A stretch of DNA of 64,000 nucleotides, taken from contig NZ_LT608328.1 in NCBI RefSeq assembly GCF_900095795.1, forward strand, positions 310,001-374,000, given 5' to 3'. The notes under the pieces were generated by a model. That model worked only from the letters and a program-made list of their open reading frames with translations, was not told where the DNA came from and searched no databases. This stretch comes from Petrimonas mucosa. Lineage in GTDB: Bacteria > Bacteroidota > Bacteroidia > Bacteroidales > Dysgonomonadaceae. The position numbers and the translations under genes are program-made. Positions 28,300 to 51,404 of the stretch are shown one piece after another (the first letter of the stretch is position 1; the number at the start of each line of letters is the position of its first letter).

Positions 28300-29712
28300 A
28301 TGGCGCAACCGCAAGCGATAACGTACCAATATGACCTGTTTAGTGAGCAGCGTCAGGATGTTATCCGCCCTTTTCCCACGAGTGAAACCGTATGTGGAGC
28401 TTCGGGAACAAAGGCGTTTCAAGTAAAAGAAGCAGGCGAACAGGAACGAACCTTAACCCCCGATTTAATGAGCTTGGTGTTGTCTCACGACAATATCAAG
28501 GCAGCCTACAAACAGGTAAAACGCAACAAAGGCGTTGCGGGTATTGACCAAATGCCGACAGGAGATTTTGCTGAATGGTATTCTCAAAATGCAGAAACGT
28601 TGCAAAGCGAACTTCACAACGGCGCTTACCAACCGCAAGGGGTAAAACAGGTCGAAATCCCGAAACCCAACGGCGGCAAACGCAAATTGGGTATCCCGAC
28701 GGTAACGGACAGGATAATCCAACAAGCGATTTCCCAGGTGCTCAATCCTATTTACGAACGAAAATTTTCCGACCACAGTTATGGTTTTCGCCCCAACCGC
28801 AATGCACACCAAGCATTAAAGAAAGGCAGCGAATACGTATCAGAGGGTAGAGTAATCGTTGTAGATATGGATTTGAAAACGTTTTTCGATGTGGTCAACC
28901 ACGACCGTTTAATGTATCTGCTATCAACCACCATCAGCGATAAAACGCTTTTGTGGCTGATACGCAAATACCTTCAAAGCGGTATACTGATAGACGGGGT
29001 TGTAAGCCAACGTACCGAAGGGATGCCGCAGGGCAGTCCTCTTTCACCCTTGCTGTCCAACATCGTTTTAGACGAACTGGACAAAGAGTTGGAAAGGCGG
29101 GGACACAAATTTGTTCGCTACGCGGACGATTGCAACATCTACGTACGCAGCCAACGGGCAGGCGAGAGATTGTTGGCATCGATAAGCGTATTTATCGAAA
29201 CCAAGTTGAAATTACTAGTAAACAAAGAGAAAAGCCGGGTATGTCCGGTCAATCACACCAAATTCTTGGGCTATACCATTCAAAGGGATGGCAGTCTGAG
29301 CATAGCCAACGAAAGTGTAAAACGCTTTAAGGAAAAGGTACGGAAGTTAACCAAACGCAATAGGGGCGTGAATTTTGAACAAATTATTGTGGAACTCGAA
29401 CCTGTGATGCGCGGTTGGCTTAACTACTTTCGGCATGCACGCTGTAAACGCCTGTTGGAGAATATAGATTCTTGGATACGGCGAAAACTTCGGTGCTATC
29501 GCTTAAAGCAATGCAAGCGTGTAATTACGCTTCAGCAATTTTTGAAAAGCCACGGTGTGGAGACTTGGCAAAGTTGGATATTGGCTCTTTCGGGGAAAGG
29601 GCTTTGGTGTAAATCGGGATGCCCGCAAGCGCATCAAGCCTTGTCCAACCGGTGGTTCAACGATGTAGGTCTTTACAATCTCTCATTAAATTATGCAAGG
29701 TTAAACCATTAA
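28300..29712 (+). CDS. ltrA: Group II intron reverse transcriptase/maturase (no endonuclease domain)
   Basis: 470 aa. Reverse transcriptase blocks are in order: NKGVAGIDQMPTGDF, VEIPKPNGGKRKLGIPTVTD, SYGFRPNRNAHQAL, VDMDLKTFFDVVNHD, EGMPQGSPLSPLLSNI and the active-site FVRYADDC. An X/maturase domain with MRGWLNYFRHAR follows. The protein stops soon after, so there is no HNH endonuclease, as in class C introns. It would splice its own RNA and reverse-transcribe it at a target. The frame is intact. Base composition and codon use (more A/T, GCG and CAA codons) differ from neighbouring genes, consistent with recent arrival. Confidence 0.95.
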   Translation: MAQPQAITYQYDLFSEQRQDVIRPFPTSETVCGASGTKAFQVKEAGEQERTLTPDLMSLVLSHDNIKAAYKQVKRNKGVAGIDQMPTGDFAEWYSQNAETLQSELHNGAYQPQGVKQVEIPKPNGGKRKLGIPTVTDRIIQQAISQVLNPIYERKFSDHSYGFRPNRNAHQALKKGSEYVSEGRVIVVDMDLKTFFDVVNHDRLMYLLSTTISDKTLLWLIRKYLQSGILIDGVVSQRTEGMPQGSPLSPLLSNIVLDELDKELERRGHKFVRYADDCNIYVRSQRAGERLLASISVFIETKLKLLVNKEKSRVCPVNHTKFLGYTIQRDGSLSIANESVKRFKEKVRKLTKRNRGVNFEQIIVELEPVMRGWLNYFRHARCKRLLENIDSWIRRKLRCYRLKQCKRVITLQQFLKSHGVETWQSWILALSGKGLWCKSGCPQAHQALSNRWFNDVGLYNLSLNYARLNH

Positions 29713-29717
29713 AAGAA

Positions 29718-29747
29718 ACCGCCGTGTGCGAGAGCATGCACGGTGGT
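29718..29747 (+). ncRNA. Group II intron domain V
   Basis: A 30-nt hairpin with a 9-bp lower stem, a 2-nt TG bulge on the 3' side, a 3-bp upper stem and a GNRA (GAGA) loop, which is the standard domain V geometry. It lies five bases after the maturase stop codon. Confidence 0.8.
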
Positions 29748-29785
29748 GTGAGAGGGCGGGGAAGTAATCCCCCTACCTACTCGAT

Positions 29786-33392: not shown

Positions 33393-33917
33393 ATGGTGAT
33401 GAACAGAGATGATTTTGAAATAATATACCTGAAATACTACAATGTGTTGAGGATATTTGCGTGTCGCATCGTCGGTGACGATTCCGCCGCAGAAGATATT
33501 ATTCAAGATGTCTTTGCAGAATTATGGAGTAATAGAATGAGTCTCGATTTTTCCAAATCGATAAAACCATACCTATATAGAGCTGTTCACAACCGAAGTC
33601 TCGATTTTTTAAAACTTTCTGATAATAAAAACGTTACCATCTCCAATCAAGAAGACCTGCTCGAACAAATACTCTATACTACTTTTACATCTCATGATGA
33701 GTTGTCATTCAATGATATTGAGAGCTATATATTGGAGTGTGTTGATCAATTGCCCGAAAGGTGCAAGGAGGTTTTCCTTTTGAGCAGACACGACAATCTA
33801 AAAAACAGGGAGATAGCCGAAAAACTGAAAATCAGCATAAAGACTGTAGAAAAACATATATCATCGGCTCTGCAAACATTGAGCAACCATCTTAAAAAGA
33901 GGGGCTACAGATCGTAA
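33393..33917 (+). CDS. ECF RNA polymerase sigma factor (SusC/FecR-associated type)
   Basis: About 174 aa. Region 2 includes YYNVLRIFACRIVGDD and AAEDIIQDVFAELWSNR; region 4 includes LPERCKEVFLLSRHDNLKNREIAEKLKISIKTVEKHISSAL (in two parts: promoter-recognition HTH KNREIAEKLKISIKTVEKH). The open frame begins at a TTG at 33351 close to the presumed promoter, so the first in-frame ATG (33393, or 33399) is preferred. It is followed by a FecR anti-sigma gene and a SusC with STN domain, the standard trans-envelope signalling set. It should activate the SusC/D locus when substrate engages the transporter. Confidence 0.93.
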   Translation: MVMNRDDFEIIYLKYYNVLRIFACRIVGDDSAAEDIIQDVFAELWSNRMSLDFSKSIKPYLYRAVHNRSLDFLKLSDNKNVTISNQEDLLEQILYTTFTSHDELSFNDIESYILECVDQLPERCKEVFLLSRHDNLKNREIAEKLKISIKTVEKHISSALQTLSNHLKKRGYRS

Positions 33918-34060
33918 GGTCTCCTGGATAGCGACGAGCATGCCTGCACCGGCCATTCAACAAAAAACATAGTCATTTTATAAAATAAATGAAATTTTAG
34001 GTAGGGTATTTCTCTGCATAGTCGTGTTAGGGATATAACACATAAAAGGAGAATTGCTCT

Positions 34061-35035
34061 ATGCTATCCGAACTATCTAATCCAAATGGCTATGACATCC
34101 TGATTGTCAAGTATCTTGATGATGATATCTCTTCCGAAGAGAAGGAACTTTTAAGGAATTGGATTCTTCAATCGAAAGAGAATGAGAATTATTTCAGGGA
34201 TTATGTATCCATTTGGGAAGCATCCAATATCATATTGCAAGACAAGAAAAATGCACAAATTAAACTGGAAGAGTTCAATCAAAAACAGAGCAGGCTCAGA
34301 AGGCGCAAATTGATCAGCTGGGCAACCAGTTCAGCAGCTGCAGTCATGCTGCTTCTTATTACACTTCAGTTCTTCACTCCCTATCAATGGTTTGGGGAAA
34401 GGGTTCAAACCTTTACCTCTGAAAACAGCAAAAAGGAGATAGTATTGCCAGACGGTTCACATGTTTGGCTAAACGCCAACAGCTCTATCAGCTATGCAAA
34501 GAGCTTTGAACGGTCACGCAAAGTAAAATTGACTGGTGAAGCACTTTTTGACGTGGTGAAGTCGGCGGGGAAAAACTTCACGGTTGAAACGTCAAATATA
34601 AAAATTGAAGTATTGGGAACAGTTTTCCTGGTAAATGACAAGGCAGGATCTGATATCACTGAAACAGTACTGGAGTCTGGGCTGGTAAACATAACCATCA
34701 ACGGCACAGGTGAGGATTTCAACCTGAAACCTGGTGAACTGTTTCAATACAATAGTACAGATGAGAGTTCAACTATTGAGCAGGTAAACGCGAGTTCATA
34801 TACCGGATGGATTGCAACCAGTCTCTCATTTACAAACATACCCATGAGCGAGCTGATTATTCAGCTGGAGAAATGGTATAACATTGATATTGTCTGCAAC
34901 AACAAGAGTATTTTGAATATACCTGTTTCCATTACCATAGATGATGAGCCGCTGGAAGAGACCCTATTTCTGCTGTCACAGATTGTTTCATTAAGTTGGA
35001 GTGCAGAGAGTGTAAACAGGATAATATTGAATTAG
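34061..35035 (+). CDS. FecR-family anti-sigma factor
   Basis: 324 aa with an N-terminal cytoplasmic anti-sigma region (VKYLDDDISSEEKELLRNWI). One membrane helix lies at about 85-105 (ISWATSSAAAVMLLLIT). A periplasmic FecR domain follows (EIVLPDGSHVWLNANSSISY, VKLTGEALFDVVKS, VETSNIKIEVLGTVFLVN) and then the C-terminal DUF4974-type domain (LSFTNIPMSELIIQLEKWYNI). It holds the ECF sigma inactive until the STN domain of the SusC signals. The gap of 143 bp from the sigma gene is A/T-rich with no clear terminator. Confidence 0.95.
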   Translation: MLSELSNPNGYDILIVKYLDDDISSEEKELLRNWILQSKENENYFRDYVSIWEASNIILQDKKNAQIKLEEFNQKQSRLRRRKLISWATSSAAAVMLLLITLQFFTPYQWFGERVQTFTSENSKKEIVLPDGSHVWLNANSSISYAKSFERSRKVKLTGEALFDVVKSAGKNFTVETSNIKIEVLGTVFLVNDKAGSDITETVLESGLVNITINGTGEDFNLKPGELFQYNSTDESSTIEQVNASSYTGWIATSLSFTNIPMSELIIQLEKWYNIDIVCNNKSILNIPVSITIDDEPLEETLFLLSQIVSLSWSAESVNRIILN

Positions 35036-35197
35036 AATATCGCCTTAACAACTATTTAACTATCATAAATCATCAAAAACCAATGAGCCTATGAGTAATA
35101 TTGAGAATAAGTGAGCAAATCTAATAAAATATACTTTTAGACGATTCCTGAAACAAGCAACCTGATTTAAAACAGCATTAACATTTAATTGATTAGA

Positions 35198-38100
35198 ATG
35201 AAAAATTGTTTATTGTTAAAATTGGAAAGCAGAAAAAAACAACTTCTATTATTAGGAGTATTGTTGATTGCTGCGAACATAAGTGCAATGGCACAGAGAG
35301 GAAGCATCGAACTACACTTGAAGGGCAAAACTCTGTTAGAGGTACTTACTACCGTTGAAAATCAAACCGACTATAAATTTGTATATAACAACAAGGAGGT
35401 AGATGTAACACGGAAGATCAATATCGATACTGAATTTGAGTCGATAGATGAGTTTACAAGTACCATATTAGGTGACTACAATGTCACGGTAAGAGGGAAT
35501 AATATCATCATTACTCCTAAAACTTCCTTTGCCGGCACCAATGTGCTGATGTCTCAGCAACCTGCGCAAAGAAATGTAATTGGGCAGATTGTTGATGCAG
35601 AGACTGGAGAAAGCATCATCGGTGCAAACATCTGGATCAGAGAAAGTGCCAGGGGAACTGTTACTGATATTGATGGAAATTTTTCCATACCCATATCCAA
35701 CAACTCAACTGTTCTTGTGGTAACATACATTGGATATGAAGAGCTAGTGATAGAGGTTGGCAGCAGGACAAACCTTGGCGTCATTCAATTGAAAGCTTCA
35801 CAAGCAACTCTCGATGAAGTGGTTGTAGTTGGTTACGGAACACAGACAAAAGAGAGTGTTATTGGTGCAATATCTACCGTCAGCATTGATGAACTGAAAG
35901 TGCCTAGCAGCAAGATAAGCAACGTTCTGGCAGGTCGTCTTGCCGGAGTTGTATCGGTAACACGTACAGGTGAACCTGGAGCTGGATCGGAGTTCTATAT
36001 CCGTGGTATTTCAACATTTGGTGCAAATAGAAACCCATTGGTGCTGGTTGATGGAATTGAGAGAAGCCTTGACCTGGTTGACCCTGAAGATATCGAGTCA
36101 TTTTCTGTCTTGAAGGATGCTACGGCTACAGCCGTTTATGGAGTCAGAGGTGCCAATGGTGTCATACTGATCACAACAAGAAATGGCATGGAGGGCAGAC
36201 CCAAAGTGAATTTAAGGGTTGAAAAGGGGTTCACCGGCCCGACCAAACTTCCCAAGATGGTAAATTCGGCCCAGTTTGCCGAATTGTACAATGAAGCATC
36301 AAACAGCAACTACTACACTTCGGAGGTTATAGACCATTATATGAATGGTACGGATCCTGATCTATATCCCAATGTTGACTGGGTTAAAAGTCTTTATGAT
36401 GATTTGGCTCAGAACACCCGGGTGAATGTGAACATTTCTGGTGGTGGTAGTCTGGCACGATATTATATAGCCGGATCGCTTTATGATGAAGGATCCATCT
36501 TCAAGACAGAACAGGCCAATACCTATGATTCATCACTGAATTACAGGAAGATCAACTTCCGTGCAAATGTGGACCTGGACCTGACTTCAACCACCATACT
36601 CAATGTAAATCTGGCCAACGTATATGAAACAAGACGCCGGCCGGGAGCATCGATGGGTGATATCTGGTATTATGCCTTTGCAACATCGCCCAATGCATTT
36701 CCAGACCGTTATTCCGATGGCAAATTCTCCGGTCCCCAATCTGGTTCGGGCTACAACCCATATAACCTGTTGATGCATTCGGGATATGCAAACGACTACT
36801 GGAACTCGGCCCAGTCCCTGATAGGTGTGACACAGAATTTAGGCGATCTGGTAACTCCTGGATTGAAGGCCAATATTAAATTTTCATGGGATGCCTATAA
36901 CTCCGGTACCATAACCAGGGACTTCAACCCTCAGCAATGGCTTGCAACAGGACGAAATGAGCTTGGCGAAATTGAATATAACGAAACCAACAGAGGGCAG
37001 GAGTCGCTTGGCTATTCAAGGGCGCTGGATGGACGTCGCACCTACTATCTGGAGGGTTCAATCAATTACGATAAGGTGATTGCTGACAGGCATAGAATTG
37101 GATCGCTGTTGCTATATAACCAAAAACAGACCAACTATCTCAATGCAGGCGATGGAATTGGAAGTTTGCCATACAGGACCCAAGGTATTGCCGGCAGGGT
37201 AACATACTCATTTGATGACAAGTATTTTGCCGAATTCAACATGGGTTATAACGGCAGTGAGAACTTTGCTCGCGGACAAAGATTTGGCTTCTTCCCTGCT
37301 GGTGCAGTTGGCTATCTGATTTCTAATGAAGATTTCTGGGCTCCGCTTGCCGATGTTGTGGATGTATTGAAATTCAAATCCTCTTATGGCCTTGTAGGTA
37401 ATGATCAGATTGGTGGTGGACGCAGGTTCATTTATGAAGAAACGATCATTACCGAAGGCAACAATTACAGCTTTGGGAGCACAGGCCAGTACGCACCGGG
37501 CAGAATCAGGATGGGAGAGCCTGCAAACCCGTATGTAAGCTGGGAGCGGGCTTATAAATTCAATGTTGGAGCTGAAATAAAGTTCTTCAATGCTCTCAAG
37601 ATCGAAACGGACTATTTCCATGAAAAGAGAGAGGGCATCTTCATGCAAAGAGCCGGGCTATCCGACCTGGTGGGCCTTTCTACAACACCATGGGTCAACG
37701 TTGGTAAGATGGAGAATCAAGGTTTTGATGCTTCATTGCAATTTGACAAGAAAGTTGGTGAAGTTCAGTTATCAGCATTGGGCAATTTTACCTATTCACA
37801 AAACATAATTATTGATAATGATGAGCCCGACTGGAACTACAAGTATCGAAACAGGATCGGCAAACCATATGGTCAACCGTTTGGATTGGTAGCACTTGGA
37901 CTTTTTGAGAGTCAGGAAGAGATAGATAATAGCCCCAAACAAGATTTTGGACCTGTTCGTCCCGGTGACATCAAGTATCTTGATGTTAATGGTGATGGTG
38001 TTGTAGACACCTCGGATGAAATTGCAATAGGATATCCGGCTGTTCCACAGGTGAACTATGGTTTCGGCCTGAATGCCCAATGGAGTGGTTTTGATGCGTC

Positions 38101-38536
38101 GGTATTCTTCCAGGGGATTGGCAGAACATCCCTGTTTGTGAGTGGAGGTTCCATATATGGATTTACTTCCGGTAGTTTGACCCGCTCGGCAATCAATGAA
38201 GATGTCTACCTTAACAGATGGACAGTAGATAACCCCAACCCCAATGCGAAATATCCGCGCCTGGATATCCAGAACAACCAGAACAACAATCGGACCTCTA
38301 CATTCAGAATGCATGATGCAAGCTTTTTACGCTTGAAAAATGCAGAAATTGGTTATACATTACCCCGGAAGGTTACCGAGAATTTTTATGTCAGCAACCT
38401 GAGAGTTTACATGTCAGGCGTCAACCTCCTTACATTCAGCAGATTCAAACTATGGGATCCGGAAAGAGGCGGCGGTGAAGGTGCTGCTTATCCTCCCAAC
38501 AGGATGTTTACACTTGGTATTAATGTCTATTTTTAA
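35198..38536 (+). CDS. SusC-like TonB-dependent transporter with STN signalling domain (glycoprotein locus)
   Basis: About 1112 aa from the ATG at 35198 (MKNCLLLKLESRKKQLLLLG); the frame extends to a TTG 9 bp upstream. After the signal (SAMAQRG) comes a secretin/TonB short N-terminal domain (GKTLLEVLTTVENQTDYKF), which contacts FecR. A carboxypeptidase-like domain (GQIVDAETGESIIGANI), the SusC signature DEVVVVGYGTQTKESVIGAI, and the plug (FYIRGISTFG, YGVRGANGVILITTRNG) follow. The barrel ends LGINVYF. The STN domain contrasts with the pectin-locus SusC and matches the different regulator. Codon use is more A/T-rich than in the pectin locus. Confidence 0.95.
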   Translation: MKNCLLLKLESRKKQLLLLGVLLIAANISAMAQRGSIELHLKGKTLLEVLTTVENQTDYKFVYNNKEVDVTRKINIDTEFESIDEFTSTILGDYNVTVRGNNIIITPKTSFAGTNVLMSQQPAQRNVIGQIVDAETGESIIGANIWIRESARGTVTDIDGNFSIPISNNSTVLVVTYIGYEELVIEVGSRTNLGVIQLKASQATLDEVVVVGYGTQTKESVIGAISTVSIDELKVPSSKISNVLAGRLAGVVSVTRTGEPGAGSEFYIRGISTFGANRNPLVLVDGIERSLDLVDPEDIESFSVLKDATATAVYGVRGANGVILITTRNGMEGRPKVNLRVEKGFTGPTKLPKMVNSAQFAELYNEASNSNYYTSEVIDHYMNGTDPDLYPNVDWVKSLYDDLAQNTRVNVNISGGGSLARYYIAGSLYDEGSIFKTEQANTYDSSLNYRKINFRANVDLDLTSTTILNVNLANVYETRRRPGASMGDIWYYAFATSPNAFPDRYSDGKFSGPQSGSGYNPYNLLMHSGYANDYWNSAQSLIGVTQNLGDLVTPGLKANIKFSWDAYNSGTITRDFNPQQWLATGRNELGEIEYNETNRGQESLGYSRALDGRRTYYLEGSINYDKVIADRHRIGSLLLYNQKQTNYLNAGDGIGSLPYRTQGIAGRVTYSFDDKYFAEFNMGYNGSENFARGQRFGFFPAGAVGYLISNEDFWAPLADVVDVLKFKSSYGLVGNDQIGGGRRFIYEETIITEGNNYSFGSTGQYAPGRIRMGEPANPYVSWERAYKFNVGAEIKFFNALKIETDYFHEKREGIFMQRAGLSDLVGLSTTPWVNVGKMENQGFDASLQFDKKVGEVQLSALGNFTYSQNIIIDNDEPDWNYKYRNRIGKPYGQPFGLVALGLFESQEEIDNSPKQDFGPVRPGDIKYLDVNGDGVVDTSDEIAIGYPAVPQVNYGFGLNAQWSGFDASVFFQGIGRTSLFVSGGSIYGFTSGSLTRSAINEDVYLNRWTVDNPNPNAKYPRLDIQNNQNNNRTSTFRMHDASFLRLKNAEIGYTLPRKVTENFYVSNLRVYMSGVNLLTFSRFKLWDPERGGGEGAAYPPNRMFTLGINVYF

Positions 38537-38565
38537 TGAATACATTTATATAAAATGCTGAAATT

Positions 38566-40410
38566 ATGAAGTTAAACAAAATACTCTTACCGATAACAAT
38601 CCTGTTTTTCATTGCGGGGACAGTTTCTTGTGAAAGTTATCTCGATAAGGAAGAGGACCTTCCAATGAGTTTCCCGAAAATATGGGAAAAAAGAGCCACG
38701 ATAGAACAGGCATTAAGTAATGTCTGGGGATATATGACATCGCCGGACGAAATGGTGGATGGACATCCCTTCATAGGTGCATCTGATGAGGGGTCTGCTA
38801 CTTATGACAGGGCATACAGGCTCATTAATTTTGGTACCTGGAACCCATCCAATGTCCCTTATCAAAAATGGGCCCAATACTATCGGGGAATCCGCGAGGC
38901 AACAATATTCATGCAGAATGCCCCCGATGCACCGGCTGCAGACCTGGAAGATGTTGAGAGAGAGCAGTGGCCTGTAGAAGCCCGTTTTGCAAGAGCCTAC
39001 TATTACTATCAACTGGTGCAGTTGTATGGTCCGGTCATGATTCTTGGCGATGAACTGCTCGACTTCAATCTTTCGATTGAAGAGTTGCAACGTCCCAGAA
39101 ACAGCATGGAGGAGTGCGTGGAATTCATCATTTCTGAACTTAGAGAGTGTGAAAAGCATCTCCCCGTGGAACAGACACCCCAATATTATGGCAAACCGAC
39201 CAAAGGTGCATGCAAGGCTATCATTTCCGAGCTGACCCTGTTTTATGCCAGACCGTTATTCAATGGAAACAAGCTATATGCGAATATCAGGAACCAGGAT
39301 GGAAAAGAGCTGTTCCCCGGTATCGCAAATGTAGACATGGACAGATGGAAGGCTGCAGCTGCTGCGGCTAAGGAGATCATCGACATGAATGAATATGAGC
39401 TCTACAAAGTTGAGTCCAATGGAGAAATTGATCCTTTGAAATCATATCAGGGTGTTTTCCTGGAATTATGGAACAACGAACTTATCTGGGCAAGATATAA
39501 GGGAGGATATTATGCACGAGTTCATACAACCCCACGTATTGCCGGAGGTGTAGCTTATGGTGGTGTAAGTCCAACCCAGCAACAGGTTGATACTTATGCC
39601 ATGAGCAATGGAATATATCCCATCACCGACTATAATCCTGATGGTACGCCAATTATTGATTCAAGGTCGGGATACGATGAAGATGGATTTACCAATTTTG
39701 AGCATCCATTAGATAAGGGGGGTGCAAAAAGAACCTATAATATGTATCTAAATCGTGAGCCAAGGTTTTATGCCACAGTATTGTGGAGTGGTTGCAAACT
39801 GCCCTACACCGGCTCAAGCGCAATTGTAAACTTCGGATTCAATGGCAACTCGGGTGGTGGTATAAGTCACGACTACCCCAAGCCAGGTTATATGGTACGC
39901 AAATGGACCGACCCCGCACTGAACACATCCGGTGGACAATGGGGCAACATGACATGGCCGATTTTCAGATATGCCGAGATTTTGCTGAATTACGTAGAGG
40001 CTCTGAATGAATATGATCCGTCGCACGGAGACATATTGAAGTATCTGAATCAGATACGCGAACGGGCAGGGGTTCCCAATATAGAAGATGTATATCCGGA
40101 AGCAGTAGGAAATCAGGAGTTGATGCGCGAGTTGATCAGAAGAGAGAGAAGAGTTGAACTTTCATTTGAGAACAAAAGATTCTTCGATACCCGTACATGG
40201 ATGATTGCAGAGGAAGTAGATGGTGGTCCGATGTGGGGAATGAACACCTCTTCCAGCGCACCTTCTCCCAACGCCTCAACTACTCCAGAAGCTTTCTGGG
40301 AGCGGACAGTTTTTGAAACACGTGTATTTGAACCTAAACACTACCTCTATCCAATACACCAGAGAGAATTGGACAGAAATGAATTGATAACTCAAAATTA
40401 TGGATGGTAA
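38566..40410 (+). CDS. SusD/RagB-like surface binding lipoprotein (glycoprotein locus)
   Basis: 614 aa with signal and lipobox TVSC. SusD features are YRGIREATIFMQNAPDAP, ARFARAYYYYQLVQLYGPV, RYAEILLNYVEALNEY and the late block RRERRVELSFENKRFFDTRTW. It is 29 bp after its SusC and one base before the next lipoprotein gene (TAAAATG). It should form the lid of the transporter and bind the substrate, here probably a glycopeptide or O-glycan judging by the enzymes downstream. Confidence 0.95.
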   Translation: MKLNKILLPITILFFIAGTVSCESYLDKEEDLPMSFPKIWEKRATIEQALSNVWGYMTSPDEMVDGHPFIGASDEGSATYDRAYRLINFGTWNPSNVPYQKWAQYYRGIREATIFMQNAPDAPAADLEDVEREQWPVEARFARAYYYYQLVQLYGPVMILGDELLDFNLSIEELQRPRNSMEECVEFIISELRECEKHLPVEQTPQYYGKPTKGACKAIISELTLFYARPLFNGNKLYANIRNQDGKELFPGIANVDMDRWKAAAAAAKEIIDMNEYELYKVESNGEIDPLKSYQGVFLELWNNELIWARYKGGYYARVHTTPRIAGGVAYGGVSPTQQQVDTYAMSNGIYPITDYNPDGTPIIDSRSGYDEDGFTNFEHPLDKGGAKRTYNMYLNREPRFYATVLWSGCKLPYTGSSAIVNFGFNGNSGGGISHDYPKPGYMVRKWTDPALNTSGGQWGNMTWPIFRYAEILLNYVEALNEYDPSHGDILKYLNQIRERAGVPNIEDVYPEAVGNQELMRELIRRERRVELSFENKRFFDTRTWMIAEEVDGGPMWGMNTSSSAPSPNASTTPEAFWERTVFETRVFEPKHYLYPIHQRELDRNELITQNYGW

Positions 40411-40411
40411 A

Positions 40412-41749
40412 ATGAAGAGCCTCAATATAAAAAAATATTTCTCTGTAATAATTTGTCTATTATTACTGGGAGTTGCATCCTGTAGCGACCATAGACTGGA
40501 TTACATATCATCGCCTAAACTCTATCTTCCTAAAAGTGGAGAAGTAGACCTGATCATTTACAAAACAGGCGAACCGTTTGTCTTTAAATTGGGCGTTACA
40601 AAATCGGGTATCGAAGATGTTGCAGCTGATGCGCAGTTGAGCATCATGAGTGAAGCGGAACTGGCTGCCTACAATAGTGCAAACAACACCAACTACAAGA
40701 GGTTGCCGGATAATTGCTTCAATTTGAATAATTCGAATGTAAGCTTTGACAAGGAGAGCAAATTGGAATATTTTGACATATTGATCCGATATGACTCGAT
40801 TGACCAGATTGCAGATTTCGATGAAGAGAACAGTGCCGACTATGTGATTCCAGCAAGACTGTCTGATGCCTCACTCGAGACAAACGAGGAGAAGCTGATC
40901 GCCATCATTAAGCCGGTATTGAGAGAGCCGCTTATCTACTTCAAGTCGTCTGAAACGAAAGTGACGATTGAAGCTGGCAAGCAAGCAGCATACCGGGAGG
41001 ATATCGATATTCAGGTAGATTTTGACAACTACTGGGATATATCGGTAGACCTGGTTGTGGATCCTGCACTTGCAGATGAGTATAATGCATCGAATGGTGT
41101 CAACCTGCCCCTATTACCTGCGGAGAGTTATTCCATCACTCCATCGCCTGCAGTCATCGCAAATGGAAAGAAATCGGTGAAGGTTTCCATCGAATTGAAT
41201 GCCGACCTGATTGACTATGACGATTTTATATTGCCGATCGTAATTGATGGCACTTCAAAGTTCAGTGCAGATACTGCAAAGAATGTACATTACCTGTATG
41301 TTTCAAAACCTGCCATGCGTTTCGACAGGACAGGGTGGACCATTGTTGATTTTTCGTCAGAAGAGCCCTCGGGTGAGGGTGCCAACAACGGAACTGCAAT
41401 ATGTGTGCTTGATGGCAATCCCGCAACCTACTGGCATAGTCAGTGGGCTGGCGCTACAGGCCAGTTGCCGCACCACTTCACCATCGACATGAAAAAGGAG
41501 CTTCTGGTCACCTCAGTTGACTTGCAGAGAAGACCCAACCAGCGCGATACACAGGGTGGAAACTTCTATATCAGCTCCGATAATGTGACATTTACATACA
41601 TTGGCTCTTTCCAGATGGCAGAAGTTGATGAACCTCAAACATTTAAAGTAACTTCTACTCATGGCAGGTATCTGAAAGTTGAAATAACGGAGAGCCGGCG
41701 GCCGCCATTTGCAAACATGAGCGAGGTTTATGTGAGAGGCGTTGAATGA
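40412..41749 (+). CDS. Surface lipoprotein with DUF1735-type domains and a C-terminal F5/8-type-C (discoidin) binding domain
   Basis: About 445 aa. The ATG at 40412, directly after the susD stop, gives MKSLNIKKYFSVII and lipobox VASC. Two repeats of the DUF1735/BT_3987 N-terminal type follow (LSIMSEAELAAYNSANNTNYKR, then VVDPALADEYNASNGVNLPL). The last 140 residues are F5/8-C-like (VLDGNPATYWHSQWAG, PHHFTIDMKKELLVTSVDL, GRYLKVEITESRR), a fold that often binds galactose-type or amino sugars. It probably acts as a surface glycan-binding protein completing the SusCD block. A strong hairpin follows it. Confidence 0.85.
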   Translation: MKSLNIKKYFSVIICLLLLGVASCSDHRLDYISSPKLYLPKSGEVDLIIYKTGEPFVFKLGVTKSGIEDVAADAQLSIMSEAELAAYNSANNTNYKRLPDNCFNLNNSNVSFDKESKLEYFDILIRYDSIDQIADFDEENSADYVIPARLSDASLETNEEKLIAIIKPVLREPLIYFKSSETKVTIEAGKQAAYREDIDIQVDFDNYWDISVDLVVDPALADEYNASNGVNLPLLPAESYSITPSPAVIANGKKSVKVSIELNADLIDYDDFILPIVIDGTSKFSADTAKNVHYLYVSKPAMRFDRTGWTIVDFSSEEPSGEGANNGTAICVLDGNPATYWHSQWAGATGQLPHHFTIDMKKELLVTSVDLQRRPNQRDTQGGNFYISSDNVTFTYIGSFQMAEVDEPQTFKVTSTHGRYLKVEITESRRPPFANMSEVYVRGVE

Positions 41750-41824
41750 AGCTTGTTGATTCAATGACAGAGATAAGAGAGTTAGTAACTATCAATCGGA
41801 AAGTTGTCTGATAATCACTGATAT

Positions 41825-41866
41825 GATGTATCTACCTGAATTATTGACAATTCAGGTAGATACATC
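41825..41866 (+). promoter_or_regulatory. Perfect 17-bp hairpin between the SusCD/binding block and the peptidase genes
   Basis: GATGTATCTACCTGAAT (41825-41841) is exactly complementary to ATTCAGGTAGATACATC (41850-41866), with an 8-nt loop TATTGACA. TATTTTC follows, a weak T-run, so partial termination or a 3'-end-stabilising structure is likely. Confidence 0.75.
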
Positions 41867-41947
41867 TATTTTCAAAAACCTTAAAAAGGTAGATGCCACT
41901 ATCAGTATTTAAGAGCAACTTGATGAACAAGACAATATTACATATAT

Positions 41948-43531
41948 ATGAAGTTATTTAAACCAGCCATTGCCCTACTGCTTTTGGTAGTATCCTGTTT
42001 TTTTGTGGAGGGATCTCCTGTAACATCTGATATCTCCAACGACATGGAGGTTTTTGCCAATCTCACGGCAACTGCTTTAAAACCTGGTGTGAAAAGAAAA
42101 CATATCAGGCAGATGAAGAATCCGGTTTTAAAGGAGCTGGCAAGTAAAATTTACAGTAAAAAATATCAACCGGGCATTCTATTGGCCGACTATGAGGCTT
42201 ATCTGGATCCCGGAATTCTGGGAGAACAACTTAGAATTGGCGACGGGTTCAGTAAATATGAGGGGATTACAGGTGTGGTACTGGACAAGGGTTTGAATTA
42301 CATATTTGTTGGCGAAACATATGGAAATGAGATATCCCTTGTTGTTCCGGAGTGGACAAGAAGAGCTCCTGAAGGCATCAAGCCCGAACAGGATCCAGAC
42401 GGGTGGGGATTGCATAGTGAAACACACAAACTGAAGGAGGGGCTCAACCTGGTGAATTTGGAAAAGGGTGGACATGCCTATATCCAGTACTTCACAAAAG
42501 ATGACCCTGAAAAATATCCCCCAATCACCGTACATTTTCCAACAGGAAAAGTCAATGGTTATTTCGATATCACGAGAGGCGATACAAACACCCAATTCAA
42601 CAGACTGCTTGACAATGCCATCAGTCCGATTATGGATATCAGGGGAAAGTATATCCAGGTAGCCTTCCCGGTTGACAGTTTAAAGATATTTGCCTATAAC
42701 AAGGGGGTAGAGCTGATCAACAACTTCGATACGATCGCTGCATTGCAAAGAGAATTCATTGGATGGAAGAAGGAGGGCATATCTCCCAAGAACCATGTAC
42801 TTGCAAGGATAAACTACCACTACTACATGTTCCGTGACCGGGATGGGGTTGCCTATATTGATTGGGCAATGCGCATGGTTGCCGATCCTGAAAGCATCAT
42901 CAAGGGCGATCCCTGCTGGGGTTTCAGCCATGAGCTGGGGCACGTATTGCAAATGCGGCCGCAACTTACCTGGGGCGGCATGACCGAGGTAAGCAACAAT
43001 ATACTTACTCTCTACTCAACCACCATGCTGGGTAACAGGAGTAGACTCTCCGTAGAGAACAGATATAAGGAGGCCAGGGAGGAGATTCTTGACAAGGGCA
43101 TCTCTTATCTGTCATATCCCGGCGAGAACAATGGCGGAAACCAATATGGCGGAGGGGTAAATACCGATGTTTTCCATCGTCTTGTTCCCTTCTGGCAATT
43201 GCACCTCTACTTTACACAACAGGGATACCCGGAGTTTTATCCGGACCTGATGATTGCCATGAGAAAAAGAGAGCCAGTGGCTGTCGGACAAAGAAATAAG
43301 GACTATTTGAACATGCTTGAGTTTTGCCGCCTGGCCTGTGAGGTTTCACAGACCGATCTGACCGAGTTCTTCGAGCGATGGGGCTTTTTCTATGTCGGGA
43401 AAATTGAGGTGAACGACTATGCCAAATATAGTTATGATATTCTTGAAGAGGAGGTTGCTGCTGTTAAGAAAGCCATTGCCGAAATGAATCTTCCAAAACC
43501 CAAAGTGGATATCACCCTGCTGGAAGATTAA
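41948..43531 (+). CDS. M60-family metallopeptidase (O-glycoprotein peptidase type), short form
   Basis: 527 aa. The signal MKLFKPAIALLLLVVSC could end in a lipobox, although the residues after the Cys are hydrophobic. The catalytic zinc motif is in WGFSHELGHVLQMRP, followed by MTEVSNN, which supplies the extra family glutamate. The preceding beta-rich domain (GLNYIFVGETYGNEISLVV, GGHAYIQYFT, VHFPTGKVNGYFDI) and the late QTDLTEFFERWGFFYVGK segment are typical of M60 enzymes. Known M60 members cleave next to O-glycosylated Ser/Thr in mucins. It is 34% or more alike by eye to the next gene in these blocks, so the pair are paralogues. Confidence 0.9.
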   Translation: MKLFKPAIALLLLVVSCFFVEGSPVTSDISNDMEVFANLTATALKPGVKRKHIRQMKNPVLKELASKIYSKKYQPGILLADYEAYLDPGILGEQLRIGDGFSKYEGITGVVLDKGLNYIFVGETYGNEISLVVPEWTRRAPEGIKPEQDPDGWGLHSETHKLKEGLNLVNLEKGGHAYIQYFTKDDPEKYPPITVHFPTGKVNGYFDITRGDTNTQFNRLLDNAISPIMDIRGKYIQVAFPVDSLKIFAYNKGVELINNFDTIAALQREFIGWKKEGISPKNHVLARINYHYYMFRDRDGVAYIDWAMRMVADPESIIKGDPCWGFSHELGHVLQMRPQLTWGGMTEVSNNILTLYSTTMLGNRSRLSVENRYKEAREEILDKGISYLSYPGENNGGNQYGGGVNTDVFHRLVPFWQLHLYFTQQGYPEFYPDLMIAMRKREPVAVGQRNKDYLNMLEFCRLACEVSQTDLTEFFERWGFFYVGKIEVNDYAKYSYDILEEEVAAVKKAIAEMNLPKPKVDITLLED

Positions 43532-43564
43532 TTGAATATCCTGTTGTCATGTCAAACAAATAGA

Positions 43565-46342
43565 ATGATTCACGCCATGCTACCATTGATGAGGTCAGTC
43601 AGATCTATTTTGCTATGCATACTGTGTAGCAGCTTCATTTTTTCCTGTTCAGACAAGGATGATACACCTCCTTTCCTGACGGTTAAGCCGGAAAGGCTTC
43701 ATCTGGCATCCACAGCCTCCCAAGCTGTTGTCAACATATCAACCAATGCTGTTGAATGGAGTGCAACTGCAAGCCCTTCTGCCTCGGGCTGGCTGACAAT
43801 TCAGAAAAGAGAAAAGGATATTACAGTGTCAGTTACGGAAAACCTGGATGAGAATACACGTGAAGGTGAAATAACCATTAAAGCCGGCAATCTCACAGAG
43901 GTTGTAGAGGTGGTGCAGATGGGCCAGACTCCTGTAATTCTGGTTTCATCCAACAGCTTCACTGTTTCGGCCGACGGAGGTATGCTAACTTTGGAAATCA
44001 CATCAAACACCCGGTATGAGATGGTCATCCCTCAGGAGGCCCAATCATGGATAACAGTGCTGGAAGGGGTCCGTGCGGCAGGAATGGTAAAATCTGAGTA
44101 TGAGTTGGATATTGCCTGGAATAGCGCGGATGTGGAGAGAAAGGCCGAAATCACCATCAAACAAACTGACGGGAACATTTCTGAAAAAGTGTCAATCATC
44201 CAGAAGGCACAAGAGGGTTATACCGGAGGATCGGCAAATGATATTCTGGATGATATCAGGGTGCCGGTAAGCAGTGCCACTGCCAGTTCATTCCAACCCG
44301 GAGAAGGTATCGAGAAGTCTGTTGATGGTGACTATTCCACAATTTATCATTCCAATTGGAACAACAGTGCGCCAGATTATTTCCCCATTACCATCGATTA
44401 CCATTTTCAAGATCAGGAATCAATAGATTATCTGATTTATCATCCACGCACCAGCGGCTGGAATGGACATTTCAAGGAGGTTGAGATATGGGCTTCGACC
44501 CAGTCGGATCCTGCATTTGAAAAGATGATGGATTTCGACTTCATGGGGTCGGGTTCAGCCACAAAAGTGGTCTTTGATGCACCTGTCATTGAACCAAAAA
44601 CCATCAGGTTTGTCGTTAAATCAGGAGCCGGAGACGGACAGGGCTTTGCGGCTTGTGCAGAGATGGAGTTTTACAGGTTCAATCCGGACAATTTCAATCC
44701 GCTCTCAATTTTCACCGACATGACCTGCTCGGAGTTGAAACCTGGCATAACCATGAAAGAGATAGAGCAAATTCCCGGTAATCTTTTCAGAAATATTGCT
44801 CTCTATCTGTATAATGGCACATATCCGGGAGAGTTCAGGATTCAGGAGTACAGAGCATGGCCGCACCCTGACGCATGGGCCAGGGAAAATAAAACATCTA
44901 CCCTCAGCCTGCTTGATAATCCAACTGGCATGACTGTTGCCAAAGATGAAGATTTGGTTGTCTTTGTTGGTGAAACAGGTGGATATCCGATTAGCCTGAA
45001 GATTCAAAATCTTGATTTGCCGGGAGGGGATGGCTATGACAATGCCTCATATTACCCACTTTCGCCCGGAATCAATAAACTTAAGGCCAGAAACGAAGGC
45101 TTGATATATCTGTTCTATCACACACCAGATTATGAGACAGCACCAAAAATCAAAGTACATTTTGCAACAGGAAAGGTCAATGGTTATTACGATTCACAGA
45201 AGCATGGCCCCGAAGATTGGCCGCGCCTTCTGAATCAGGCTGTAGCCAAGTATTTTGATGTGTTGGGGGCATATGCGCATCTGACATTCCCAACGCAGGA
45301 TTTCAGGCAGTATGCTGCCACCAATGGTCCTGAACTTATTGACTCATACGACGATCTTGTCAGACTGGAAGCCGAATTCATGGGGCTGATGAAATACAAC
45401 CGTCCAACTGTCAACAGGGCTTACTTTCATGTCATGTACCACTCCTATATGTATGCCACATCATACAGAACAGCATACCATTCAGGCACAACAAGTGCAA
45501 TACTCAGCCTCAACAGTTTAAGGGCAGAACCCTGGGGACCGGCCCATGAGCTGGGTCATACATTCCAGACCCGGCCCGGATTTTTGTGGCGTGGCATGAC
45601 CGAGGTGACCAATAATCTTCATTCCCTATATGTGCAAACTCAATGGGGGAATATCTCCCGCATTGAGTCTGAGAATCTAGACCGTTTTAATAACAGGTAC
45701 GAGAAGGCATATTATAACTCCTTCATTCAGAACATTCCACACCCGGGGGAGGAGGATGTATTTTGCAAGCTTGTCTCCCTGTGGCAATTACAGTTATACT
45801 TCGCAGAAGCAAGAGGGCTGGTTGATGTTTATAAGGATCTATATGAAATGGTGCGCATATCACCCAACAAGGCAACGGCAGGTGAGCAGCAACTTGAGTT
45901 TGTGAAGATGATGTGCGAAATTACAGAAACAGATCTGACCGGCTTCTTCCATAAGTGGGGCTATCTTTCTCCTTATGATGAGATCATTGATGACTATGGC
46001 ACGGGACGCTTCCTGATTACTCAAGAGCAAATTGATGAGGTGGTAGCAGAGATAAAGGCAAAGAACTATGCTCCCTTGACTGAAAAGCTTGAGTATATAT
46101 GCGACTCAAATGTCGATTACTTTAAAAACAGATGGCAGGTCAAGGAGGGAACTGCTACAGCAAATGGCACGACAATCGTAATGACCGGCTGGGAAAATGT
46201 GGTTGCATATGAGGTGTATCAGGGGGACGATCTTTTGTTTGTCTCCAATAAAAGCAAGTTTACGATAGACCAGAAATACAACGACAGTATTGTGGTCTAT
46301 GCATTATCATATGACGGAAATAGAACCAAAGTGAATTTCTAA
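43565..46342 (+). CDS. M60-family metallopeptidase lipoprotein with two BACON-like domains and an F5/8-type-C domain
   Basis: About 925 aa. ATGs at 43565, 43577 and 43589 all lead to a signal with lipobox FSC; the frame opens at a TTG directly after the previous stop. Two BACON-like Ig repeats (WLTIQKREKDITVSV, SWITVLEGVRAAG) occupy residues about 35-225. An F5/8-C-like domain (VDGDYSTIYHSNWNNSAPDY, IDYLIYHPRTSG) follows to about 375. The M60 catalytic domain has HELGHTFQTRPGFLWRGMTEV. BACON and F5/8-C domains are associated with glycan or glycoprotein binding. It ends with a small Ig-like tail. The accessory domains suggest a surface enzyme that grips glycosylated protein, with the shorter paralogue finishing cleavage. 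Confidence 0.92.
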   Translation: MIHAMLPLMRSVRSILLCILCSSFIFSCSDKDDTPPFLTVKPERLHLASTASQAVVNISTNAVEWSATASPSASGWLTIQKREKDITVSVTENLDENTREGEITIKAGNLTEVVEVVQMGQTPVILVSSNSFTVSADGGMLTLEITSNTRYEMVIPQEAQSWITVLEGVRAAGMVKSEYELDIAWNSADVERKAEITIKQTDGNISEKVSIIQKAQEGYTGGSANDILDDIRVPVSSATASSFQPGEGIEKSVDGDYSTIYHSNWNNSAPDYFPITIDYHFQDQESIDYLIYHPRTSGWNGHFKEVEIWASTQSDPAFEKMMDFDFMGSGSATKVVFDAPVIEPKTIRFVVKSGAGDGQGFAACAEMEFYRFNPDNFNPLSIFTDMTCSELKPGITMKEIEQIPGNLFRNIALYLYNGTYPGEFRIQEYRAWPHPDAWARENKTSTLSLLDNPTGMTVAKDEDLVVFVGETGGYPISLKIQNLDLPGGDGYDNASYYPLSPGINKLKARNEGLIYLFYHTPDYETAPKIKVHFATGKVNGYYDSQKHGPEDWPRLLNQAVAKYFDVLGAYAHLTFPTQDFRQYAATNGPELIDSYDDLVRLEAEFMGLMKYNRPTVNRAYFHVMYHSYMYATSYRTAYHSGTTSAILSLNSLRAEPWGPAHELGHTFQTRPGFLWRGMTEVTNNLHSLYVQTQWGNISRIESENLDRFNNRYEKAYYNSFIQNIPHPGEEDVFCKLVSLWQLQLYFAEARGLVDVYKDLYEMVRISPNKATAGEQQLEFVKMMCEITETDLTGFFHKWGYLSPYDEIIDDYGTGRFLITQEQIDEVVAEIKAKNYAPLTEKLEYICDSNVDYFKNRWQVKEGTATANGTTIVMTGWENVVAYEVYQGDDLLFVSNKSKFTIDQKYNDSIVVYALSYDGNRTKVNF

Positions 46343-46363
46343 AAATAAAAACAGAATCAAATT

Positions 46364-47788
46364 ATGCAGAAAAGTTTATTTGCATTTGCCATTTTACTGG
46401 CATCACTTCTTTTGGGAGGTTGTACCCCGAAAGGCACGACAACAGCAGGCAGAGGCACTGTAGAACCCATACAGGTCCCCGTTCCGGTACGTCCGGCAGG
46501 ACAAGGGGATGTGATTGGATTGACCGCTCCCAAGATAGAGACAGTGCGCGTAGGTTTCATTGGCCTGGGCATGAGGGGGCCCGGAGCCGTAAGTCGTTTC
46601 ACACATATTCCCGGAACCCGGATAGTTGCACTATGCGATATTCACGAAGAGAGGGTAGAGAATGCCCAAAAGATTCTTGAGAATGCAGGTTTGCCAAGAG
46701 CCGCAGCCTACAGTGGTAGCGAAGATGCATGGAAAGAGCTTTGCCAGCGCGATGATATCGACCTTGTCTATATTGCGACAGACTGGAAGAAACATGCCAT
46801 GATGATGATTTATGCCATGGAGCAGGGCAAGCATGTGGCTTGTGAAGTTCCGGCAGCCATGACATTGGATGAGATCTGGGCAATCATCGACACAGCCGAA
46901 AGAACCCGAAAGCATGCCATGCAACTGGAGAATTGTGTTTACGACTTCTTTGAGCTGACAACTCTCAACATGGCACAACAGGGTCTGTTTGGTGAAATTC
47001 TACATGCCGAAGGTGCATACATTCATGATCTTGGTGCTTTCTGGGATTATTATGAAGGCGACTGGCGCTTGCAGTACAACAAAGAGTTCAGAGGCGATGT
47101 CTATGCCACACATGGCATGGGACCTGCAGCCCAGGCCCTGGATATTCACCGTGGCGACAAGATGAACATTCTTGTCTCAATGGATACAAAACCAGTAAAC
47201 ATTCCTGAGTACCTGATCGAGAAGAGGGGCATGGATCGCGATAGCGCATATCAGTTTGCCAATGGTCAGCACACCATGACAATGATCAGCACGGAGAAGG
47301 GTAAAACAATCCAAATTCAACACGATGTAGCTTCTCCACGTCCATACTCCCGCATGTATCAGTTGAGTGGGACAAAAGGGTTCGCCAACAAGTATCCAAT
47401 TGAGGGGTATGCTCTTGATGCGTCATCATTAAAAGGAGGCGAAATCCCCAACCTGGAAAATCTGAATGCACACAGCTTTGTACCCAAAGAGACGAAGGAG
47501 GCTCTGATGGAGACATACAAGCACCGCATTCACAGGGAGCTGGAGGAGAAGGCCAGAGAGGTTGGCGGACATGGAGGCATGGACTTCATCATGGACTACA
47601 GACTGGTTTACTGCCTGCAAAACGGACTTCCATTAGACATGGATGTTTACGACCTTGCAGAGTGGTGCTCGCTTGCAGAACTTAGCCGAATCTCCATCGA
47701 AAACAACAATGCACCTGTAGCAGTACCCGATTTCACACGTGGCAACTGGAATAAGGTTCAAGGTTACAGGCACGCTTTTGCGGAGTGA
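46364..47788 (+). CDS. GH109-type NAD-dependent glycosidase (alpha-N-acetylgalactosaminidase-like), Gfo/Idh/MocA fold
   Basis: 474 aa with signal and lipobox LLGGC. The Rossmann motif VGFIGLGMRGPGAV binds NAD. EVPAAMTLDEIWAIIDTAE, QLENCVYDFFEL and THGMGPAAQALDIHRGD resemble the GH109 family, whose characterised members cleave terminal alpha-linked GalNAc through an oxidation-elimination mechanism. A plain oxidoreductase of the same fold is the main alternative. Lipid export from the cytoplasm and position 22 bp behind two M60 peptidases favour glycosidase action on GalNAc-Ser/Thr or blood-group-A-type ends. A terminator follows, closing the locus. Confidence 0.85.
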   Translation: MQKSLFAFAILLASLLLGGCTPKGTTTAGRGTVEPIQVPVPVRPAGQGDVIGLTAPKIETVRVGFIGLGMRGPGAVSRFTHIPGTRIVALCDIHEERVENAQKILENAGLPRAAAYSGSEDAWKELCQRDDIDLVYIATDWKKHAMMMIYAMEQGKHVACEVPAAMTLDEIWAIIDTAERTRKHAMQLENCVYDFFELTTLNMAQQGLFGEILHAEGAYIHDLGAFWDYYEGDWRLQYNKEFRGDVYATHGMGPAAQALDIHRGDKMNILVSMDTKPVNIPEYLIEKRGMDRDSAYQFANGQHTMTMISTEKGKTIQIQHDVASPRPYSRMYQLSGTKGFANKYPIEGYALDASSLKGGEIPNLENLNAHSFVPKETKEALMETYKHRIHRELEEKAREVGGHGGMDFIMDYRLVYCLQNGLPLDMDVYDLAEWCSLAELSRISIENNNAPVAVPDFTRGNWNKVQGYRHAFAE

Positions 47789-47809
47789 TCCGTTTCCCTG
47801 TCACGACAG

Positions 47810-47841
47810 GAGATTGTCCCGATCGGGGCAATCTCTTTTTT
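47810..47841 (+). terminator. Terminator closing the glycoprotein locus
   Basis: GAGATTG and CCC pair with GGG and CAATCTC around one T/G pair and a GATC loop, followed by six T. Confidence 0.85.
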
Positions 47842-50615: not shown

Positions 50616-51404
50616 GTGGAAGAATACGGTATAAGCATCTCTCGGGCGTGCAAGCTGATGGAAATCCATCGCTCCTACTTCTACTATAGAGAGAAGAAAG
50701 ATGACACCGAAGTTGAAGAGGCAATCCGTGCTGCCGCCGAGTTTGGTGATGGCTTCTGGAAAATATATTCAAGACTGAGACGTGAGGGTAAGGGATGGAA
50801 CCACAAGAAGGTTTACAGGGTGTACCAGGCAATGCACTATGAGAAACGAAGCCGATTGAAGAAACGTTTACCTGCAAGGGTTAAGAACCCTCTGGTTATG
50901 CCTAAAGAGCCCAATGTTACCTGGTCTATTGATTTTATCAGTGACAGGATTGAGTGCGGAAGGCAGTTCCGCGTTCTTAACATCATAGATGATGCCTGCA
51001 AGATTGCTGTGGCTCAGGAGATATCGATGTCCATGCCGGCAAAACGGGTCATTAAAGTTCTGGAAAAGATCATATGGCTGAATGGCAAACCAAAGAACAT
51101 ACGCTGCGACAATGGCCCTGAGTTTATCGCCCAAGTGTTCAAAGATTGGTGCAAAGGAAATGAGATAAACATCATCTATATTCAGCCTGGTAAACCCACT
51201 CAGAACGGTTACATTGAACGCTTCAACGGAAGCTACAGAAGGGCTGTACTTGATAGGTATATTTTCCGCAACATATCTGAAGTCAGGGAACTGACCGAAG
51301 CTTGGCGGAAAGACTACAATGAAGAACGGCCCCATGAGTCGTTGGACAACATGACGCCCATTGAATATAGGGAAGAACTGATAAAAAGAAAGGAAGCAGT
51401 ATGA
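50616..51404 (+). CDS. IS3-family transposase OrfB (DDE integrase domain)
   Basis: 262 aa counted from a GTG; it is more likely made as an OrfAB fusion since its frame is open back to the A-run. After an HTH-like head (ISISRACKLMEIHRSYFYY) comes the rve domain with catalytic acids in WSIDFISDRIE, IRCDNGPEF and PTQNGYIERFNG. The tail EERPHESLDNMTPIEYRE is standard for IS3. The frame is intact. Confidence 0.95.
   Translation: MEEYGISISRACKLMEIHRSYFYYREKKDDTEVEEAIRAAAEFGDGFWKIYSRLRREGKGWNHKKVYRVYQAMHYEKRSRLKKRLPARVKNPLVMPKEPNVTWSIDFISDRIECGRQFRVLNIIDDACKIAVAQEISMSMPAKRVIKVLEKIIWLNGKPKNIRCDNGPEFIAQVFKDWCKGNEINIIYIQPGKPTQNGYIERFNGSYRRAVLDRYIFRNISEVRELTEAWRKDYNEERPHESLDNMTPIEYREELIKRKEAV

Follow-up and report, generated by a model that had tools for sequence, protein, structure and literature searches.

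A candidate utilization locus for mucin-type O-glycoproteins with two M60 peptidase classes and a putative mosaic SusC in Petrimonas mucosa

What is a SusC/SusD locus with two M60 peptidases and a GH109 glycosidase for, and how was it put together? The locus lies in a 64,000-nucleotide stretch of the Petrimonas mucosa genome (RefSeq assembly GCF_900095795.1, contig NZ_LT608328.1, positions 310,001 to 374,000), which is called here the window; coordinates are those of the window and are given in Table 1. P. mucosa ING2-E5A is an isolate from a biogas reactor (PMC7768429), and its genome is a single contig of 3,717,632 bases. Pfam and NCBIfam bear out the gene order proposed in an earlier note on this DNA: extracytoplasmic function (ECF) sigma factor, FecR, SusC, SusD, binding protein, M60, BACON-F5/8C-M60, GH109 and terminator. 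Its susC and susD homologues stand in tandem, with regulators and enzymes linked to them, as in a polysaccharide utilization locus (PUL). By analogy with BT4240-50 and BT3015 of Bacteroides thetaiotaomicron we read it, with a probability of about 0.72, as a PUL for mucin-type O-glycoproteins. This reading draws on the gene content, the catalytic and ligand residues of the enzymes and a repeated neighborhood of the second peptidase (M60_2) and GH109. It would mean that a mucin-type O-glycoprotein system has been carried into a reactor bacterium. The locus is real and coherent; the features worth following are its two M60 classes in tandem and its mosaic SusC.

This kind of locus is already known. 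The B. thetaiotaomicron PUL BT4240-50 (PUL78) has the same core parts and is mucin-inducible; its M60 peptidase, CBM32s, SusD and GH109 were tested on mucin O-glycoprotein, and the GH109 cleaves Tn antigen (PMC11992087). Both loci contain, in this order, sigma and anti-sigma factors, SusC, SusD, a DUF1735 protein with a family 32 carbohydrate-binding module (CBM32) and a BACON-CBM32-M60 protein, and GH109 is also present in both. BT4240-50 has a single M60, and its GH109 belongs to a second operon with GH2, a major facilitator superfamily (MFS) transporter and an N-acetylgalactosamine (GalNAc) kinase (PMC11992087). In the window, unlike BT4240-50, GH109 stands directly behind the peptidases and there is an extra M60 of the AM0627 type. 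No GH2 beta-galactosidase, MFS transporter or GalNAc kinase was found among the locus genes and the two flanking genes (Pfam) or the other flanking open reading frames (ORFs, read by eye); the rest of the genome was not searched. Because this adjoining operon was not seen, we regard the window locus as a variant that works like BT4240-50 and not as an orthologous copy. The published model agrees with what the earlier note had claimed, a sigma/anti-sigma-controlled locus for mucin-type O-glycoproteins that imports glycopeptides (PMC11992087). PUL45 of B. thetaiotaomicron (BT3010-BT3017, with the M60 BT3015) is likewise a sigma-controlled SusC/SusD locus with a CBM32-M60 mucinase (PMC13176161). 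Its SusD, BT3013 (entry 7bll), is the best match by sequence to the window SusD among proteins of known structure, and 5cjz (BT4246) is the other closest structure; both are SusD proteins of M60-bearing PULs of B. thetaiotaomicron (PMC11992087). PUL45 differs from the window in having one M60, no carbohydrate-active enzyme reported there, and a phosphatase gene in place of GH109 (PMC13176161; PMC11992087).

The first peptidase, M60_1 (527 aa), has a Peptidase_M60 match of 150.5 bits (cut-off 25.8) and an M60-like_N domain in Pfam. Its closest structures are the AM0627 entries 7sci (E 1e-161) and 7yx8 (E 2e-150). As in Akkermansia muciniphila AM0627, a CBM is absent and the length is similar. 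All 12 checked residues that hold the peptide and glycans in AM0627 (W149, Y287, Y288, F290, R291, D292, D318, W321, N347, R362, F390 and Y470; PMC9325726) are kept, together with the four zinc/catalytic residues (HExxH plus Glu). The HELGH motifs noticed earlier are indeed present in both peptidases. Among 81 M60_1-like proteins, namely that of the window and the best 80 of 142 relatives, each of the 16 ligand and catalytic columns is unchanged in 80 or 81. At the 12 ligand columns the deviations are a gap at D318, another at Y470 and a single Met in place of F390. This level is also reached by 90 of the 479 well-filled columns as general background, and two search patterns span W149, Y287 and Y288, whose conservation is therefore partly a result of how the proteins were picked. 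Tyr470 is tied to cleavage between contiguous O-glycans (PMC9325726). Because all checked ligand residues including Tyr470 are kept, M60_1 is predicted to favor adjacent, clustered, truncated O-glycans. Tyr470 is no strict marker, since the same Tyr also seems to be present in M60_2 (Y822) and is found in BT4244, which also cut single-glycan substrates (PMC13355702). M60_1 appears to be exported, and a soluble or periplasmic form seems likelier than a lipoprotein because a lipobox-like stretch occurs in only 14 of the 81 proteins (the window's, where it is ambiguous, included).

The second peptidase, M60_2, consists of BACON, F5_F8_type_C, Peptidase_M60 (152.2 bits) and Peptidase_M60_C domains (Pfam), and its translation probably starts at the ATG at 43577. 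The closest structures to the peptidase part are Bacteroides caccae BcM60C, K and F (best E 4e-148), and the best match, BcM60C, covers the whole construct. The structure closest to its CBM32, 7blg (E 4e-52), is from B. thetaiotaomicron, as is the SusD match. Read by eye, the Trp, Asn, Arg and Tyr of the GalNAc site and the equivalent of Tyr470 are kept as W668, N695, R710, Y639 and Y822; Tyr639 is as in BcM60M and not the Phe of BcM60K. With the catalytic motif, these GalNAc-site residues and BACON-CBM32 in front, M60_2 has the features of the BcM60 clade-1/BT4244-like enzymes. The catalytic part, known here from sequence, resembles the B. caccae clade-1 O-glycopeptidases BcM60C/K/M (PMC13355702). 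In clade-1 enzymes the catalytic helix is shorter than in BT4244 and AM0627, which gives BcM60C and K a pocket for branched (core-2) glycans, while BcM60F and B have no such pocket (PMC13355702). Since M60_1 is of the AM0627 type and M60_2 is closest to the branched-glycan-tolerant BcM60C/K, the two peptidases are predicted to differ in glycan tolerance. After the lipobox M60_2 reads C-SDKDD, similar to SDDDD and K-(D/E)2, two signals for the export of lipoproteins (PMC5080379). Asp or Glu falls within the two positions after the Cys in all 11 M60_2 proteins of the family that were compared (by eye). This signal points to M60_2 as a surface lipoprotein.

M60 matches occur in 26 of 101 genomes of the family (Dysgonomonadaceae), that of P. 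mucosa included. From the 40 M60 places outside the P. mucosa genome, 21 were fetched in 20 regions, comprising every place with a frame of 919-945 aa (11) and 10 more picked by hand. Thirteen of the fetched loci have an M60_2 relative of at least 57% identity; L159 (44%, the contig ends in the gene), L162 (49%), the weaker L163 and L165-L167, and L164 (M60_1 only) were left out. GH109 is directly downstream of M60_2 in 9 of these 13 loci and elsewhere in the locus in one; contig ends cut the GH109 of L150 and L155. In the family, M60_1 stands beside M60_2 in the window, in L148 (the same region as L038, a Fermentimonas metagenome-assembled genome, MAG) and in L159 (the same as L037, MAG UBA4912). 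Outside the family the pair occurs in two Salegentibacter loci (L055 and L066, with M60_2 first) and, in L047, with the two genes on opposite strands. Within 80 M60_1 loci an M60_2 relative is nearby in five and GH109 in two (L050 and L076). The three together occur in none of the 80, a weak negative as many of these loci are short and L037 ends inside M60_2. Two A. muciniphila loci (L044 and L046, 10 kb on each side) contain no relative of the window SusC or SusD, whereas M60_1 sits in a PUL. What is new is the tandem of AM0627-type and BcM60C/K-like M60 classes beside GH109. A separate locus of the same family, L188, has sigma factor, FecR, SusC of the same type, SusD, binding protein and GH109, with no M60 match. 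An M60 relic between its binding protein and GH109 was considered and rejected; the 0.9-kb gap gave chance-level matches only (E >= 1.4).

From these data we infer the locations of the proteins, the order of the steps and the substrate. SusD, the binding protein and the CBM32-like module of M60_2 would hold glycoproteins bearing GalNAc or Gal-GalNAc at the cell surface, where M60_2 would make the first cuts beside O-glycosylated Ser/Thr. The glycopeptides would be imported through SusCD; as they pass through SusC, its STN-like part would relay a signal to FecR and the sigma factor. M60_1, probably periplasmic or soluble, would then cut between neighboring O-glycans and trim the products of M60_2, and GH109, probably periplasmic, would remove GalNAc. 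This order of surface cutting and trimming is suggested because CBM-less AM0627 does not significantly cut mucin reporters displayed on a membrane and cuts them in solution (PMC13003899), behavior that fits a second-step role for the CBM-less M60_1. With two M60 classes of different predicted glycan tolerance in one locus, such a division of labor is directly testable. Sparsely decorated GalNAc-peptides, the substrate first proposed, find no support: the ligand site of M60_1 favors clustered glycans, and M60_2 is closest to enzymes that tolerate branched core-2 glycans. A sparse, Tn-only substrate was rejected as the default given the AM0627-type ligand site. The earlier note had also argued for Tn-like glycans from the lack of another glycosidase in the locus. 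The missing beta-galactosidase is not telling, as trimming enzymes may be encoded elsewhere. The genome has several BNR_2 (sialidase-type) matches, five of which are over the cut-off on their own.

Several observations weigh against a mucin-type PUL, beside the second-operon genes that were not seen. GH109 is missing from the stretch read in 3 of the 13 M60_2 loci (L148, L154 and L157), among them the locus with the closest M60 pair; L154 stops 3.2 kb behind M60_2. GH109 is not tied to M60, as a relative (E <= 1e-60) occurs in 83 of the 101 family genomes and M60 in 26. Around the nearest GH109 relatives (87%, L189 and L196) there is no match to the other locus genes, and the neighbors in L189 are SRP54-, radical-SAM-, LpxD- and LpxC-type genes. 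Asp318 of AM0627 has no clear equivalent in M60_2 (by eye). A possible lipobox, VVSC, in M60_1 of the window would allow this protein to be a lipoprotein. The three sulfatase-fold matches in the genome are above cut-off and weak (best 49.6 bits). Finally, the isolate was obtained from a biogas reactor and not from an animal.

This last point also speaks for the strongest rival, in which the substrate is a microbial or other non-animal O-glycoprotein, such as S-layer or sludge matrix, and the enzymes recognize GalNAc- or HexNAc-Ser/Thr (HexNAc, N-acetylhexosamine) wherever it occurs. Of the 80 M60_1 loci, 48 belong to Bacteroidota, 20 to Verrucomicrobiota and 9 to Planctomycetota, and three further phyla have one each (ranks from record titles; the lone Bacillota record, a MAG with Clostridiales in its title, may carry a wrong name). 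The ligand residues are thus unchanged across several phyla, and at least 12 of the 80 titles, read by eye, name open-water, sediment or groundwater samples, although such titles are a weak guide to habitat. Against this rival, digesters receive manure and food waste, which carry animal mucins, and the characterized relatives examined were tested on mucins, mucin-like glycopeptides or IgA1. We consider it possible, at odds clearly lower than those of a mucin-type substrate. Because the AM0627-type site is unchanged across phyla, one can test whether non-animal glycoproteins serve 'mucinases' as substrate. A bolder reading would make the bis-O-glycan peptidases of the AM0627 type an environmental enzyme class that is widespread and works on O-glycoproteins of microbes or plankton; the gut mucinases would then be a special case. 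A locus for general protein scavenging, supplying amino acids with the glycan parts incidental, is improbable. P. mucosa does have amino-acid fermentation genes, and PUL peptidases may serve protein degradation (PMC7768429), but the GalNAc ligand residues are kept and GH109 is repeatedly linked to M60_2.

The assignment of GH109 agrees with the mucin-type reading. In Pfam the protein matches GFO_IDH_MocA and Glyco_hydro_109_C (140 bits, cut-off 27). The closest structures are 6t2b (E 6e-85), an Akkermansia protein (PMC10154618), and 2ixa. The Rossmann domain, the C-terminal domain and the GGHGG loop together are those of the GH109 family. The loop is known as a GH109 feature from a title (Teze 2020) in the references of PMC10154618. 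The protein was expected to remove alpha-GalNAc; its family membership holds, and strict alpha-specificity is not required, given that one Akkermansia GH109 acts on both alpha- and beta-GalNAc (PMC10154618). That the protein, with its Gfo/Idh/MocA fold, acts as an oxidoreductase instead of a glycosidase is very improbable. In favor of it, NCBIfam lists nine dehydrogenase/oxidoreductase families, all under their cut-offs; against it, Glyco_hydro_109_C is far above its own, two GH109 entries are the best structures and the GGHGG loop is present. A lipobox-type Cys occurs in 9 of the 10 GH109 proteins compared. No Asp or Glu follows it within five positions in 8 of these 9 (L156 is the exception), nor in the window GH109, which is probably a periplasmic lipoprotein without an acidic export signal. 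The genome contains five matches to the GH109 C-terminal family, four of them with the GGHGG loop in a simple scan. One of the genome's loci, L195 (C1:3567000-3586900), has a second GH109 (72%) beside fucI (L-fucose isomerase), fucP (fucose permease), a GntR-type regulator, an alpha-L-fucosidase and a GLAA-B barrel protein. It looks like a locus of the blood-group-antigen type that would handle blood-group-like ends.

How the locus was assembled is suggested by SusC. Window and Fermentimonas locus L148 are 77% identical in the sigma factor, 69% in FecR, 82% in M60_1 and 76% in M60_2; SusD is just 27% identical, and the best match between the binding proteins is 38 residues at 34%. Identity in SusC depends on the segment: the STN-like part (aa 36-115) shares 75% with L148 and 44% with L159, the plug and barrel (aa 221-1115) 38% and 84%, respectively. 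In trees the window STN-like part groups with L148 (support 98/99) and the barrel with L159 (99/98). The approximately unbiased (AU) test rejects window plus L159 in the STN tree (p 0.0085) and window plus L148 in the barrel tree (p 0.00025), for clades picked after the identities were seen. The STN tree has 86 columns and 11 rows, with mostly weak branches and long ones for L193 and L156. The GC content also steps within susC: the STN part has 0.35, plug and barrel have 0.45. Of the earlier STN-SusC label, the SusC part stands (TIGR04056). The STN part (PF07660) matches over the full profile at a sub-threshold 18.3 bits (cut-off 28.4), and no solved relative of it was found by sequence at E <= 1.

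These data point to a mosaic SusC, with the N-terminal signaling part grouping with one lineage and the barrel, SusD and binding protein with another. The simplest account would be a crossover inside susC that swapped the transporter cassette and kept the sensor. We lean towards true recombination, in which SusC plug and barrel, SusD and binding protein were placed under an existing sensor and before existing M60 genes. By a crossover at the boundary of sensor and transporter a known signal circuit (sigma factor, FecR and the STN-like part of SusC) would gain a new import specificity. The mosaic thus suggests how loci change import specificity yet keep the sensor. A silent donor in the same genome was considered and rejected: none of 42 other SusC-type matches (E <= 1e-40) exceeds 42% identity, and those running from before residue 30 to the end have at most 39%, so no recent local donor was found. 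A shufflon was rejected as well, since no pair among the 25 longest of 70 inverted-repeat pairs frames alternative susC parts. DNA inversion systems that shuffle susC are known in Bacteroides, and swapping of susC as such is therefore not new. A literature search of limited depth found no published account of such a fixed exchange.

Between the binding protein and M60_1 there is a hairpin, unmentioned in the earlier note, with a folding energy of -27.1 kcal/mol over 56 bases. The pattern ATCTACCNG...CNGGTAGAT occurs once in the window and in none of 100 shuffles. It is found in 8 of 208 loci, all of them copies of the window, L037 or L038 regions, and the matching gap in other loci holds unrelated hairpins or none. 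The three loci of the family in which both M60 types were found keep its position and core. In their alignment 4 of 14 pairs have changes on both sides and 95.2% of cells pair (three sequences only). This pairing level is reached by 9 of 500 shuffles, and slid versions reach at most 43%. Support for the hairpin comes from the position and paired changes that recur in three loci, not from pattern frequency. A genome-wide element was rejected, as a looser pattern is not enriched: the genome has 8 occurrences, and a backward control gives 14. The hairpin may be an attenuator or processing site that lowers expression of the enzymes relative to SusCD.

Table 1. Features of the locus in window coordinates
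Feature	Coordinates	Strand	Basis or position
ECF sigma factor (Sig70_bacteroi1, TIGR02985; Sigma70_r2/r4_2)	33393..33917	+	Pfam, NCBIfam
FecR-type anti-sigma factor (FecR, FecR_C)	34061..35035	+	Pfam
SusC/RagA TonB-dependent transporter, putative mosaic	35189..38536	+	NCBIfam TIGR04056, 984.7 bits
SusD-like lipoprotein (SusD_RagB)	38566..40410	+	Pfam, structure matches
Surface binding lipoprotein (BT_3987-like_N + F5_F8_type_C, CBM32-like)	40400..41749; start perhaps ATG 40412	+	Pfam
Perfect 18-bp hairpin, then TATTTT	41825..41866	+	between binding protein and M60_1
M60_1, AM0627-type M60 peptidase without CBM	41948..43531; HELGH 42929-42943	+	Pfam, structure match
M60_2, lipoprotein with BACON, CBM32-like, M60 and M60_C	43577..46342 (open frame from 43532); HELGH 45545-45559	+	Pfam, structure match
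GH109 lipoprotein	46364..47788; GGHGG loop 47564-47578	+	Pfam, structure match
Intrinsic terminator, hairpin + TTTTTT	about 47810..47841	+	

In the table BT_3987-like_N is taken to be the former DUF1735. The terminator is absent from the output of a terminator scan that requires a loop of 3-8 bases. This locus contains both M60 matches of the 3.72-Mb genome, which has no others. The genome paper places an M60 peptidase in "PUL_05" and connects it with glycoproteins (PMC7768429); as the genome has no M60 genes outside the locus, PUL_05 very probably corresponds to it. The upstream MG2/plug gene and the downstream gene of the short-chain dehydrogenase/reductase (SDR) type have no close relatives in the other nine genomes of the genus (best 53% and 44%), so a comparison with an empty site could not define an insertion site. 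Elsewhere in the window, a neighboring SusCD at 6825-22961 is followed by polygalacturonase (GH28-like)-, pectate lyase- and pectinesterase-like genes (translations read by eye); this pectin-type locus fits the pectin PULs described for the P. mucosa strain. An Rfam DUF805b RNA match (36.3 bits, threshold 35.6) at 27129-27162 is just ahead of the ORF at 27196. Upstream of the locus, at 27959-29785, group II intron parts flank a reverse transcriptase-like ORF (28300-29712), and downstream, at 50616-51404, there is an IS3-type transposase-like ORF (translation read by eye).

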